A stretch of DNA of 64,000 nucleotides from Halobacillus hunanensis. GTDB lineage: Bacteria > Bacillota > Bacilli > Bacillales > Halobacillaceae. This document shows positions 36,973 through 41,654 of this stretch, one piece after another. The first letter of the stretch is position 1. Every line of letters starts with the position of its first letter. The DNA is taken from assembly GCF_900166655.1 (NCBI RefSeq), contig NZ_FVZB01000005.1, positions 811,001 to 875,000 of the forward strand. The letters are read 5' to 3'. A program made the translations under genes and the position numbers. Below the pieces are notes generated by a model. That model did not search any database. It was given only the letters and a program-made list of their open reading frames with translations, and was not told where the DNA came from.

Positions 36973-37530
36973 ATGTCCCAAAAAACAGCTTTACTCATTA
37001 TCGATATGATTAACAAAATGGATTTTGACGGCGGTGAGGCTCTGCTGGAAAACACGAGATCCATAATGGATAGCTTAAATCGCTTGAAAGCAGGGGTCAA
37101 GCAACGAGAAATACCTGTAATCTATGTAAATGATAATTTTGGGCTATGGCAGGATAATAAAACCGACCTTATTGAGGAGTGCAGAAAGGGAATCGGCCGC
37201 CCCATTATTAACGGAATTCTCCCGGAAGATGATGACTATTTTATTATTAAACCTAAACACTCCGGTTTTTACGGAACTCAATTGAATATTCTGTTGGGGC
37301 AGCTGGGCATTTCCAACTTGATCTTAACCGGAGTCGCGGGGGATATTTGCGTTTTATTTACAGCCAATGACGCTTATATGCGTGAATTTAATCTATGGAT
37401 TCCACGAGATGGTATAGCCTCAGAGAAAGAAGAAGATAACGAAAATGCGATTAAAATTATCGAAAGGTCATTATTTGCGAATACAGCCAAAATCTCTGAA
37501 ACCGATATCGATAAGGTTTTTGATTATTGA
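36973..37530 (+). CDS. Isochorismatase-family cysteine hydrolase
   Basis: A 185-aa hydrolase with the triad Asp11 (LLIIDMINKMDF), Lys93 (IIKPKHSGFYGT) and Cys126 (GVAGDICVLFTANDA). It begins 2 bp after nadE and shares its transcript. Coupling to NAD synthetase suggests a nicotinamidase-like role in NAD recycling, but the sequence also fits general amidases of the family, so this is only inference. The strong promoter of the following leader overlaps its last codons. Confidence 0.82.
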   Translation: MSQKTALLIIDMINKMDFDGGEALLENTRSIMDSLNRLKAGVKQREIPVIYVNDNFGLWQDNKTDLIEECRKGIGRPIINGILPEDDDYFIIKPKHSGFYGTQLNILLGQLGISNLILTGVAGDICVLFTANDAYMREFNLWIPRDGIASEKEEDNENAIKIIERSLFANTAKISETDIDKVFDY

Positions 37531-37555
37531 CATTACTGAGGGAACTGTATATTCT
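37527..37555 (+). promoter_or_regulatory. Sigma-A promoter of the mutS2-like leader
   Basis: Consensus TTGACA (37527-37532) overlapping the preceding stop codon, 17-bp spacer, TATTCT (37550-37555). Transcription should begin near 37562. Confidence 0.65.
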
Positions 37556-37614
37556 AAGGATAGAGAACGGTATGTTCCGCCATTTAAATCCATTCTTTAA
37601 AGGAGAATGTTTGT

Positions 37615-37635
37615 ATGAGTGTTGTTCTTAACTAA
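37615..37635 (+). CDS. Six-residue leader peptide MSVVLN
   Basis: ATG at 37615, stop TAA at 37633-37635, with AAAGGAG (37599-37605) 9 nt upstream, as good a ribosome site as any in the window. The last codons and the stop form the left arm of a long stem, so a ribosome paused here would change leader folding. It is a regulatory peptide rather than a functional product. Confidence 0.6.
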   Translation: MSVVLN

Positions 37636-37764
37636 ATCCGTTAATTGGATACTGTTCTGAAATATTGAGAAAGACATGCAATATGCAGGTCATATTTGTG
37701 TTTTCTAAATTTTTCAGAACTTAGTTAAGAGCGAGCATTCTCATAGCAGAAGCATTTGATATAC

Positions 37765-37798
37765 AAAGCTATGGCTTACTTAGTCATAGCTTTTTTTA
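37765..37798 (+). terminator. Conditional terminator in the mutS2-like leader
   Basis: Stem AAAGCTATG / CATAGCTTT (37765-37773 / 37785-37793) with T7 at 37791-37797. It lies 135 bp before the gene it would silence. Confidence 0.75.
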
Positions 37799-37932
37799 TA
37801 TCATTTAAATGGCGGAGTACCAGACGGGCACAGCAATGTGTCTTTAGTTCTCCATAAATAACCATTTCAGCTGCGATGAGCCTTTAAGCTTATGGCGGCT
37901 TTTTTATGGTTTAAAATAGGAGGTAATCGAAG

Positions 37933-39858
37933 TTGAACAAGGTAACCTTTCAAACGTTAGAATTTCATGAGATTTTACTTGAAGTGAGCGGCTATGCATT
38001 AACCGATAAAGGAAAAGAAACGATATTAGCAAGCAAACCATCATATGATAAACGGCTGATTACCCATTGGCATAAGGAAGTTGATGAAGCAAAAGCGATC
38101 CTATCGAGCTCCGGTAATGTGCCTATTCATACCTTGAATAATGTCACTCAAATGCTGGAACAAGCCAAAAAAGGCATGTTAATTCGGGCTGATCAATTTT
38201 CACGTCTGGCTTCATTTCTAGATCATTGCACAAAATTAAAACGGTTCATGAGAGGGAAGGAAATCATGGCTCCGACGATTAGTCTGTATGCGTGGTCAAT
38301 AGTGGATTTAACTATACTGGAAGAAGAATTGCATCGGGTGATTCGGCATGGTCAAGTAGATGACCATGCCTCTAAAACGTTAGCGAAAATCCGCAAACAA
38401 ATAGCAGCTAAAAGCATGAAGATTAAAGAGAAAATCGATCACATGTCAAAGTCTGCTAAGCTTAAACCGTATATGCAGGATAAACTGGTGGTCGAAAAGA
38501 ACGGAAGATATACTCTTCCGATTAAGAAAGAAAATCGAAATAAAGTAAAGGGATCCGTTGTGGGTCAGTCTTCTTCAGGAGCTACTTTATTTATTGAACC
38601 AGAGGAGATTACAGTTCATCAAGAAGAGTTGCATATTCTTAAAATTAGTGAGGAGCAAGAGGTAGAGCAAATCCTCTACACTTTGACGAATACGTTTACA
38701 TCCTACGAACAAGAACTGTCTATTGCCATGGAAACGATGCATAAGTATGATGTTATTTTTGCAAAAGCAAAGTACAGTCACCACATCAATGGAAAGTCAG
38801 TAACTTTAAATGAGGAGGATGTCATCAACTTACATGAAGCCAGACATCCACTGCTTAAGGAGCAAGCTGTGCCCTTGACGATTACGATGGACTCGGAGGA
38901 TCAAAGCTTAGTGATTACAGGACCGAATACAGGTGGGAAAACAGTTACCCTTAAGACAGTTGGACTTCTGGTAATAATGGCGCAAGCAGGCCTTCACATA
39001 CCCGTTGGAAAAGAAAGCACCCTGCCTCTATACCAACATGTACTTGTCGATATAGGGGACGGACAAAATATCAAGGAAAATTTGAGTACGTTCAGCTCAA
39101 GACTTGTGAATATCATTGAAGTGATGAGGCAAGCCAATGAGTACAGTCTTGTGCTGCTTGATGAATTAGGTTCTGGAACGGATCCGGGAGAGGGAATGGG
39201 GCTGGCTACAGCAATTTTAGATCAATTAGCTGATAAAGGGGCTAGAATCTTAGCTACTACCCATTACAGTGAAATGAAGGACTACGCAGCGGGTAAACAA
39301 GGGTTTATGAATGCCGCCATGGAGTTTGATGTTGACACACTGCAGCCAACGTACAAACTTATCCTGGGTGCAACAGGGAAAAGTCAGGCATTTGATATCG
39401 CCTTAAAGCTTGGTTTACATCCGAAGATTCTTGAAAATGCCTACGCGATTACGTATAAACAGGAAAAAACTTTTCATGTCGATGATACATGTTTAAGAAA
39501 ACTGGATTATAGCCAACAAGTTGCCGTTAACCGTTATGGAAAGGTGTCTCGTTCGGGAGGGAAAACGGACCAGAAACCAGTCGAATTCCAGATGGGAGAC
39601 AATGTTACCGTTCAAGCGACGGGGGAAACGGCAATTGTTTATAAAGGGCCAGACCAACGGGGGAATTATATTGTGCAAATTAAAGGAGAAAAACAGACCA
39701 TTAATCACAAGCGGTTAAAGCTTCATATCCCTGCAGAGGAACTTTATCCTGAAGACTACGACTTTGATATTATTTTCAAATCAAAAGAGTACCGAAAAAT
39801 TAAACATCAAATGGGAAAGAAGCATGTGGAAGGGCTGTATCTTGAGGAGGAAGAATAA
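37933..39858 (+). CDS. MutS2 paralogue lacking the Smr nuclease domain
   Basis: A 641-aa MutS2-type protein with a TTG start behind TAGGAGGT. The lever/clamp region spans about 1-300, with VVGQSSSGATLFIEPEEI characteristic of MutS2. Walker A GPNTGGKT is at 330-337, Walker B LVLLDE at 406-411, and ATTHY is the switch histidine. After the ATPase the usual long coiled-coil segment is missing. A KOW-type domain follows at about 552-600 (FQMGDNVTVQATGETAIVYK). The C-terminal Smr domain (LDLRG, HGKG) of standard 785-aa MutS2 is absent. MutS2 binds collided ribosomes in B. subtilis, so a ribosome-directed ATPase induced through its leader is the inferred role; a DNA role is possible. Confidence 0.85.
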   Translation: MNKVTFQTLEFHEILLEVSGYALTDKGKETILASKPSYDKRLITHWHKEVDEAKAILSSSGNVPIHTLNNVTQMLEQAKKGMLIRADQFSRLASFLDHCTKLKRFMRGKEIMAPTISLYAWSIVDLTILEEELHRVIRHGQVDDHASKTLAKIRKQIAAKSMKIKEKIDHMSKSAKLKPYMQDKLVVEKNGRYTLPIKKENRNKVKGSVVGQSSSGATLFIEPEEITVHQEELHILKISEEQEVEQILYTLTNTFTSYEQELSIAMETMHKYDVIFAKAKYSHHINGKSVTLNEEDVINLHEARHPLLKEQAVPLTITMDSEDQSLVITGPNTGGKTVTLKTVGLLVIMAQAGLHIPVGKESTLPLYQHVLVDIGDGQNIKENLSTFSSRLVNIIEVMRQANEYSLVLLDELGSGTDPGEGMGLATAILDQLADKGARILATTHYSEMKDYAAGKQGFMNAAMEFDVDTLQPTYKLILGATGKSQAFDIALKLGLHPKILENAYAITYKQEKTFHVDDTCLRKLDYSQQVAVNRYGKVSRSGGKTDQKPVEFQMGDNVTVQATGETAIVYKGPDQRGNYIVQIKGEKQTINHKRLKLHIPAEELYPEDYDFDIIFKSKEYRKIKHQMGKKHVEGLYLEEEE

Positions 39859-40381: not shown

Positions 40382-40696
40382 TTAAGAAACTAGTTTTAAA
40401 CCTACGACTCCAATCACAATACAACTAATGAAAAATAGTCGTTTCACACTAGCTTTTTCTTTAAACAATAGGATACCGAGCAGTACGGTTCCAACAGAGC
40501 CTATTCCTGTCCAGATCCCATATGCGGTACCGATGGGCAGGTCTTTAAGCGACAGGGAGAGAAAGTATAGGCTTAATCCCCCTGAAACAATGGCTAACAG
40601 GGTAGGAATTTTTCTGCGGAATCCTTCTGATAGTTTGAGGAACAGCATCCCTGACATTTCTCCAATACCAGCAAAAAGTAAAAAGATCCATGACAT
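40382..40696 (-). CDS. SMR-family efflux subunit
   Basis: A 104-aa four-helix small multidrug resistance protein. The membrane-embedded glutamate lies in MSWIFLLFAGIGEMSG (Glu13), and GTAYGIWTGIGSVGTVLLG is helix 3. It overlaps its partner (TAATG), so the two probably form a heterodimer, as YvdR/YvdS and YkkC/YkkD do. The GTAYGIWTGIG block is found in guanidinium exporters as well as in drug exporters, so the substrate is open. Confidence 0.85.
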   Translation of the reverse strand: MSWIFLLFAGIGEMSGMLFLKLSEGFRRKIPTLLAIVSGGLSLYFLSLSLKDLPIGTAYGIWTGIGSVGTVLLGILLFKEKASVKRLFFISCIVIGVVGLKLVS

Positions 40697-41046
40697 TATA
40701 ACCCCTCCTCAGTAATAACTTCCACCTTTGATGACTCTGACATTTTTAAGCCAATGATGCCAAAAATTAAAACGGCAATAAAAAAGACCTTTCCGGCGCT
40801 TGCGATATCGCCAAGAAATGCCATTCCGATTACGGCTGTACCAGCTGCGCCTATTCCTGTGAAAATGGCGTATCCAGTGCCGATGTCGATCATTTTTATT
40901 GCTTTTGTAAATAAGAAAAAGCTAATGAAAATGGATATCAAAGTAAAAACGGTAATGAAGGGTTTTGTAAACCCTTCAGACATTTTAAGACCCACGGCCC
41001 AGCCAATTTCAAACAGAGCACCTATAAATAAATAGATCCAGGCCAT
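40696..41046 (-). CDS. SMR-family efflux subunit
   Basis: A 116-aa four-helix SMR protein with Glu13 in MAWIYLFIGALFEIGWAVGL and KMSEGFTKP after helix 1. It has a short extra C-terminal tail (ESSKVEVITEEGL). It lies between tetR (2-bp gap) and the second SMR gene (overlapping). Paired SMR proteins normally insert in opposite orientations to make an asymmetric proton-coupled exporter. Confidence 0.85.
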   Translation of the reverse strand: MAWIYLFIGALFEIGWAVGLKMSEGFTKPFITVFTLISIFISFFLFTKAIKMIDIGTGYAIFTGIGAAGTAVIGMAFLGDIASAGKVFFIAVLIFGIIGLKMSESSKVEVITEEGL

Positions 41047-41048
41047 AT

Positions 41049-41639
41049 TTAATCCTCCTTGCTTGACTTTTGTACACCAAGCCAGAATATTTTAAAACTT
41101 GCTTGCTCTCGTTGAGCCAGCGTATCTTTATCGTAGAAATTTTCTTCAAGAAACAGACCATCAATTAACGTATAGAAGGCTGAGAGTACATCCTTAATAG
41201 GAAGCTGTCGTAAACTGCCTTCTTTCATTCCTTTTTCAATAATGGGCCGGATAATATCATTTGTCTGTTCCTCCACTTGCAGAAACACTTGCTTAATTTC
41301 TTCCGAGAAGTCTTCCGGCGGAAAAAAGGTAAACCGTTTAAAGAACGTACCTTCAGTTGAATTAGCCATGTGATCAACATAGAATTGATACACTCTTTCC
41401 AGACGTTGTTTAACGGGTTGATCGTAGGTTTTTTCCGTGAACGCTTGGAAATGTTCCGTCTCCTTCATAGCTACTTCTTTTAATACCTCCAGGAAAATTG
41501 CTTCCTTACTTCCAAAGTGATTATAAAGCGAAGGCTTTTTAATCCCTACTTTAGAGGCAATATCAGTAAGACTTGTATTTTCATAGCCGTTATGAGCAAA
41601 ACGCTCCAGGCTGACATCAATGATTTTCTGTTTTGACAT
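41049..41639 (-). CDS. TetR-family repressor of the SMR operon
   Basis: A 196-aa regulator. The helix-turn-helix holds TSLTDIASKVGIKKPSLYNHF (the usual TetR signature, about 25-45), followed by GSKEAIFLEVLKEV. The start is placed at 41639, with GAGGG 6 nt upstream. It is the first gene of the tetR-SMR-SMR operon and presumably represses it, releasing DNA when it binds a toxic cation. The arrangement matches B. subtilis yvdT-yvdS-yvdR. Confidence 0.87.
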   Translation of the reverse strand: MSKQKIIDVSLERFAHNGYENTSLTDIASKVGIKKPSLYNHFGSKEAIFLEVLKEVAMKETEHFQAFTEKTYDQPVKQRLERVYQFYVDHMANSTEGTFFKRFTFFPPEDFSEEIKQVFLQVEEQTNDIIRPIIEKGMKEGSLRQLPIKDVLSAFYTLIDGLFLEENFYDKDTLAQREQASFKIFWLGVQKSSKED

Positions 41640-41654
41640 GTCCATCCCTCACTA

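Follow-up and report, generated by a model that had tools for sequence, protein, structure and literature searches.

The segment of the Halobacillus hunanensis genome analysed here (contig NZ_FVZB01000005.1, positions 811,001 to 875,000 of the forward strand; 64,000 nucleotides, hereafter the window) carries, ahead of a gene for a MutS2 paralogue without the Smr domain, a structured leader that is very probably a leader-peptide transcription attenuator. The paralogue itself probably acts on ribosomes and would be induced by translational stress, an assignment that draws on the resemblance of its leader to that of vmlR. The attenuator, first proposed in an initial annotation of the window, is strongly supported by the conservation in related bacteria of a short open reading frame (ORF), of the RNA pairings around it and of the linkage to the paralogue gene. 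The elements of the locus, all on the forward (+) strand, are the following.

37527..37555, +, promoter-like site TTGACA-17-TATTCT, 10 of 12 consensus positions
37576..37589, +, 5' strand of the long-range helix P1, TCCGCCATTTAAAT, with a perfect 14-bp complement at 37803-37816
37600..37605, +, Shine-Dalgarno (SD) site AAGGAG of the leader ORF, read from the sequence and found in relatives too
37615..37635, +, leader ORF MSVVLN-stop, ATG AGT GTT GTT CTT AAC TAA, six codons, read from the sequence
37624..37635, +, 5' strand of stem A (anti-antiterminator), the last three codons of the ORF and its stop
37654..37662, +, 5' strand of stem P2, pairing with 37712-37720
37673..37691, +, hairpin P3, a possible RNA polymerase pause hairpin, from the RNA fold
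37712..37720, +, 3' strand of stem P2, from the swap test described below
37721..37732, +, 3' strand of stem A, forming 12 uninterrupted pairs with 37624-37635, one of them G-U
37742..37747, +, CATAGC, antiterminator strand, complement of GCTATG at 37768-37773
37765..37797, +, terminator T1 and its T-tract (T7 at 37791-37797), from a terminator scan
37803..37816, +, 3' strand of P1, 14-bp match to 37576-37589
37870..37905, +, second terminator T2 with six T, recognized by eye and missed by a simple scan
37918..37923, +, SD site of the paralogue gene, read from the sequence
37933..39858, +, Smr-less MutS2 paralogue, 641 residues, TTG start, matching TIGR01069
39589..39732, +, KOW-like five-strand barrel (approximately residues 553-600) from the predicted structure, with a predicted local distance difference test score (pLDDT) of about 81, aligning with the MutS2 KOW region
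39733..39855, +, conserved C-terminal tail LYPEDYDFDIIFKSKEYRK..., from alignments

The paralogue gene is separated by 402 bases from an isochorismatase-like gene that ends at 37530. The ORF with its ribosome site, the CATAGC-GCTATG complementarity and the T7 tract all lie where the initial annotation had placed them. The stem said to lock the end of the ORF also exists, but with the 12 pairs listed above rather than 10 bp, and the promoter is in its place but is not significant on its own, since three promoter-like sites occur in the 601-bp region against 2.2 in shuffled sequences; boxes resembling it were seen by eye 5' of several related leaders. The terminator scan returned two sites against 0.2 in shuffles, the second at 37826-37843; T2 is usually seen by eye in relatives, where it was not counted. 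Helix P1 can form only once T1 has been passed, and T2 lies downstream of it. The RNA from 37558 to 37932 folds at -136.4 kcal/mol (z -10.5), and none of 100 shuffled sequences was equally low.

Paralogues of this kind were found in 31 of 44 genomes in a search of the family and, at a threshold of E <= 1e-118, in 183 of the 397 genomes (54 of the 135 genera) sampled from the order. Among the matches listed by a profile search against 200 genomes from the class, 49 score between 591 and 1105 bits; listed matches at or below 583 bits have, with few exceptions, frames of about 790 residues, like MutS2. In a tree of 49 proteins, 37 paralogues lie on one side of a branch with support 99/98, apart from MutS2, and split into clade i (98/93), which includes the window's protein, and clade ii (100/99), for whose proteins the identity is 37-40%. 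A search of genome contigs with a single protein returned seven loci only. One copy, in the clostridium Acetoanaerobium, lies on a record of 2.6 Mb that is labelled a plasmid. On the Paenibacillus plasmid pHD01 (L134), the paralogue and its leader are found near a tyrosine recombinase/integrase gene.

The leader is present in all 66 clade-i-like genes having enough upstream sequence (sets of 29, 19 and 18; L028, at a contig end, was dropped from the family set). Its ORF mostly reads M-x-x-V-V-L-N-stop (MSVVVLN, MKVVVLN, MLGVVLN, MLSVVLN, MYLVVLN and others), with codons 2-4 variable and codons 5-7 forming a nearly invariant RNA-pairing strand, GTTCTTAAC. After the ORF come, in order, a small hairpin, P2, P3, often TTATTT, the strand GTTAAGAAC, which pairs with GTTCTTAAC, often CATAGC, and T1. 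A pattern built from the ORF end and its partner strand matches 122 of the 397 genomes and its backwards control none. The initial annotation would have fallen had neither peptide nor pairings been conserved upstream of orthologues; conservation was found, and 121 of 123 distinct places matching the pattern precede a listed paralogue on the same strand by 138-894 bases, a count that rests on the listed paralogue coordinates. Of the remaining two, one precedes a frameshifted paralogue (G052); the other, a second match in G215 (G215:C3:474644, L110), stands before an acetyltransferase-like ORF, not a paralogue, and is probably due to chance. In four genomes the paralogue frame is broken and the leader pattern is still there: L109, L111, L112 and L113 (G052, G345, G030 and G346, the last judged from the order-wide search output alone). 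Viewed from the genes, the exact pattern precedes 121 of 131 listed close paralogues (at least 44% identity). The other ten are those of the window, G019, G217, G302, G422, G114, G241, G368, G415 and G232; nine of them carry diverged leader forms, read individually, with a seven-codon ORF in G114, G241, G368 and G415, and no leader was found upstream of the G232 gene.

Among these relatives the six-codon ORF of the window is an exception. Of the 66 leaders parsed, 63 have seven codons; six are found in the window and in L004, and for L075 the length is nine or seven, depending on whether an upstream GTG or the next one is taken as the start. In a count over all loci without selection, which required an ATG or GTG start and an SD-like site, a length of exactly seven codons is found in 63 of the 66 motif-picked leaders against 2.3 expected from shuffles (misses L001, L004 and L061), in 27 of 29 loci of the class that were not motif-picked against 1.9 (misses L148 and L150), in 15 of 15 further loci against 1.3 and in four of five in a fourth set against 0.4, these being sets in which a few loci are shared by two, several are near relatives and some ORFs were not read by eye. 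The next commonest lengths are eight codons (13/66) and nine codons (11/29), the latter owing to an in-frame ATG further upstream in a single group of genus level. Clade ii has seven-codon ORFs of other sequence (MSVLGSK, VSAVGSK, MSGVVSK, MSEVVSA), with L148 (eight codons), L150 (a three-codon ORF only) and the ambiguous L145 and L151 as exceptions; the ORF reads MSVIVLL in Acetoanaerobium and MSVNVLN on the Paenibacillus plasmid. The clade-ii leader pattern matches in seven of 130 genomes, in five directly upstream of listed paralogues; in the other two (G064, G140) the gene place is not among the listed ones. A middle strand, located in 15 of 16 clade-ii leaders, has two partners there: the ORF, at -14 to -23 kcal/mol, and a strand further downstream, close to the gene, at an own mean of -18.5 kcal/mol against -16.2 for strands of other loci and -9.6 for shuffled ones, although the own value of L149 is only -6.3.

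Pairing was further assessed in 45 non-redundant leaders by comparing each leader's own partner strand with the strands of the others. P2 covaries (own -12.8, swapped -5.0 kcal/mol; own best in its row in 22/45). RNAalifold, run on a plain alignment of 66 leaders, found stem A only, because the arms of P2 vary in length and spacing. P1, bracketing the ORF together with T1, reaches nine or more contiguous pairs in 24/45 leaders against 5.9% of swapped pairs and 0/45 for a control region; it is seen in 16/18 leaders of the window's family and in 8/27 others, and the helices of L017, L060 and L069 are A/T-rich and may be due to chance. Its duplex energy (own -22.6, swapped -18.3, best in row in 10/45) is weaker evidence. 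The motif TTNTTT occurs in the P3 stretch of 26/45 leaders against 7.5 in shuffles.

The switch was modelled on RNA reaching to the T1 loop in 41 leaders, the four of 45 that have no T1 candidate being excluded; stem A forms a mean of 11.85 expected pairs over these leaders. A ribosome covering the ORF raises the expected number of pairs that the CATAGC region makes with the 5' arm of T1 from 2.84 to 6.11 (32/41 leaders up, none down); placed at the start codon, it raises the number to 5.93 (29 up, one down). A control block of equal size inside P2/P3 leaves 2.83 pairs (none up, one down).

The product of the controlled gene scores 592.9 bits against TIGR01069 (NCBIfam cut-off 400), but over model positions 2-518 of 790 only, and the same genome also encodes an ordinary MutS2 of 787 residues with 40% identity to it. 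A structure predicted with 27 aligned paralogues (mean pLDDT 82.6, predicted template modelling score 0.68) shows a MutS2-like core followed by five strands at 557-599. Foldseek ranks an integrative model of YabR-MutS2 first; of the experimental structures, 7qv3, a collided disome with B. subtilis MutS2, matches best. The ATPase-motif residues are invariant in all 27 aligned rows. In an alignment of 17 paralogues with nine MutS2 proteins, the paralogues lack both the coiled coil and the Smr domain, and neither a Pfam scan nor the alignment revealed Smr in the window's protein; profile, structure and alignment thus bear out the annotated domain make-up, an ATPase that keeps a KOW-like barrel and lacks those two regions. 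After the KOW region comes a tail of about 40 conserved residues; the last 102 residues of the protein have no Pfam match at E <= 1. A tail pattern, LYPxxYDxxxxFxxxxxRK..., stands where MutS2 has Smr, and in the 17-paralogue alignment the tail has an acidic end in most rows of clade i and a basic one (RGSKKALRKIQKEI) in most of those of clade ii. Downstream of the gene, on the opposite strand at 40382-41645, are a SugE-like small multidrug transporter pair and a gene for a TetR-type regulator (below NCBIfam cut-offs).

We propose that the paralogue may be a stress-inducible, nuclease-free ribosome splitter, the MutS2 counterpart of HflXr, an HflX-type GTPase. With free ribosomes, the leader ORF of seven codons (six in the window) would be read and released fast; its 3' end would then pair with the downstream GTTAAGAAC to give stem A, the CATAGC strand would be kept tied up, and T1, backed by T2, would form and leave the gene off. 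Drug-bound or slowed ribosomes on the ORF would block stem A, CATAGC would then pair with the 5' arm of T1, and transcription would continue into the gene, the product of which, a MutS2 core and KOW barrel without Smr, would split or clear stalled ribosomes. Translation of the leader ORF, pausing, antitermination in the cell, ribosome splitting and drug tolerance are what we infer for this locus. Occupancy of the ORF by a ribosome would count for more than the peptide, since codons 2-4 are variable and the other three, 5-7, serve as the pairing strand. Excerpts of PubMed Central (PMC) article PMC10897456 report that B. subtilis MutS2 splits disomes, that Walker mutants abolish splitting, that KOW and Smr mutants show only very modest sensitivity to erythromycin and that loss of MutS2 makes cells hypersensitive to chloramphenicol, tetracycline and erythromycin; splitting by means of the ATPase, together with the mild phenotype of the KOW and Smr mutants, makes a splitting factor without Smr plausible. 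As to occupancy against peptide, excerpts of PMC9226507 report that two of three changed sequences of the vmlR leader ORF work like the natural one and the third less well.

Tentatively, and with slightly less than an even chance in our estimation, the proposal may extend to a widespread resistance-type system of Bacilli, an inducible nuclease-free MutS2-type splitter with its own attenuator family and a fixed seven-codon sensor ORF. As two deep clades with different ORF sequences share ORF length and switch logic, such a system would sense ribosome occupancy generally, rather than one drug, and would confer tolerance to several classes of ribosome-targeting antibiotics.

Several observations weigh against this account of the locus. 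Stem A does not covary (own -14.4, swapped -13.7 kcal/mol) because it is nearly invariant. The folding comparison with and without a ribosome, suggested in the initial annotation, came out as expected in the 32 leaders that shift to the antiterminator, but the modelled shift in the window is small (5.8 pairs free, 7.0 blocked) and in 9/41 models a ribosome on the ORF changed nothing by more than 0.5 pairs. A T1 candidate, found in 41/45 leaders, is missing from the other four; TTNTTT is missing from the window, which has ATATTT there, and from 19/45 leaders; and the account does not explain P1 and T2. On the protein side, the KOW loop aligned with the uS10-contacting residues named for B. subtilis MutS2 in excerpts of PMC10897456 reads QVGMMK in the genome's own MutS2 and QIKGEK in the paralogue, and with this loop changed, the ribosome binding of the paralogue may differ from that of MutS2.

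The change in the KOW loop, together with the new tail in place of Smr, is also what favours the idea that the leader senses translation but the paralogue acts on nucleic acid, such as branched DNA, recombination intermediates or RNA-DNA hybrids. DNA activities are reported for MutS2 homologues in excerpts of the literature. We regard this as unlikely, given that a sensor of ribosome occupancy best suits a target in translation and that the experimental structure nearest in fold shows MutS2 on a collided disome. A switch of non-ribosomal kind, responding to a bound ligand or protein with the ORF incidental, would account for a large, strongly folded leader with conserved loop motifs; it seems improbable in view of a seven-codon ORF and SD site fixed in two clades of different sequence. 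The leader has no Rfam match at the gathering level, and all that relaxed thresholds bring up are models of animal or ciliate RNAs at E 0.03-0.8, none of them credible.

That clade-i ORFs mostly end in V-L-N could suggest a classical amino-acid attenuator in which the ORF senses a shortage of valine, leucine or asparagine tRNA. The ending, however, coincides with the RNA-pairing strand while codons 2-4 vary, clade-ii ORFs read SAVGSK, SGVVSK or SEVVSA instead, and the controlled gene is not biosynthetic, all of which leave such a sensor with a very small probability. Ordinary end-of-operon terminators accompanied by a chance ORF would fit the position of T1 after the isochorismatase-like gene, but between that gene and the leader there is a promoter-like site, in Cytobacillus spongiae this leader stands behind a DUF4395 gene instead, and its pattern goes with the paralogue; conservation contradicts this explanation, to which we give almost no credence. 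The reading that we prefer is a translation-responsive attenuator controlling a factor that probably acts on ribosomes.

Neither the Smr-less MutS2 paralogue nor its leader was found described in the open-licence PMC literature (preprints being outside the scope of the search). If the preferred reading is correct, a MutS-type ATPase would join ABC-F proteins and HflXr among the ribosome-acting factors of Gram-positive bacteria under leader-ORF attenuation, the presence of the paralogue in so many of the sampled genomes of the order (183/397) would be explained, and nature would have provided a test of whether MutS2-type splitting requires the Smr domain. As a compact and conserved element, the switch lends itself to direct testing with a reporter.

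Among known systems, and as far as excerpts of the respective papers describe them, the leader of streptococcal msrD (PMC10314930) is similar in combining a leader peptide with attenuation of a ribosome-acting ATPase, but the gene is of another class. B. subtilis MutS2 (PMC10897456) shares the ATPase core, the clamp and lever region and the KOW domain; unlike it, the paralogue has neither coiled coil nor Smr, carries another tail and belongs to a separate clade (99/98). The vmlR leader of B. subtilis resembles the present one in having a short ORF within an anti-antiterminator stem, an intrinsic terminator, a ribosome-acting ATPase as the controlled product and a pause hairpin with TTNTTT (here in the 26/45 leaders noted above and not in the window), whereas its ORF has three codons (MIN), its controlled gene is an ABC-F gene and no second terminator or P1-like helix is described in the excerpts of PMC9226507; the likeness meant here is one of anatomy. 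In the hflXr/rli80 system of Listeria monocytogenes, as here, a paralogue of a housekeeping splitting factor stands behind a leader-ORF transcription attenuator; there the ORF has 14 codons with an RLR motif and the paralogue confers antibiotic resistance (PMC6310831), while here the controlled product is a MutS-type ATPase.

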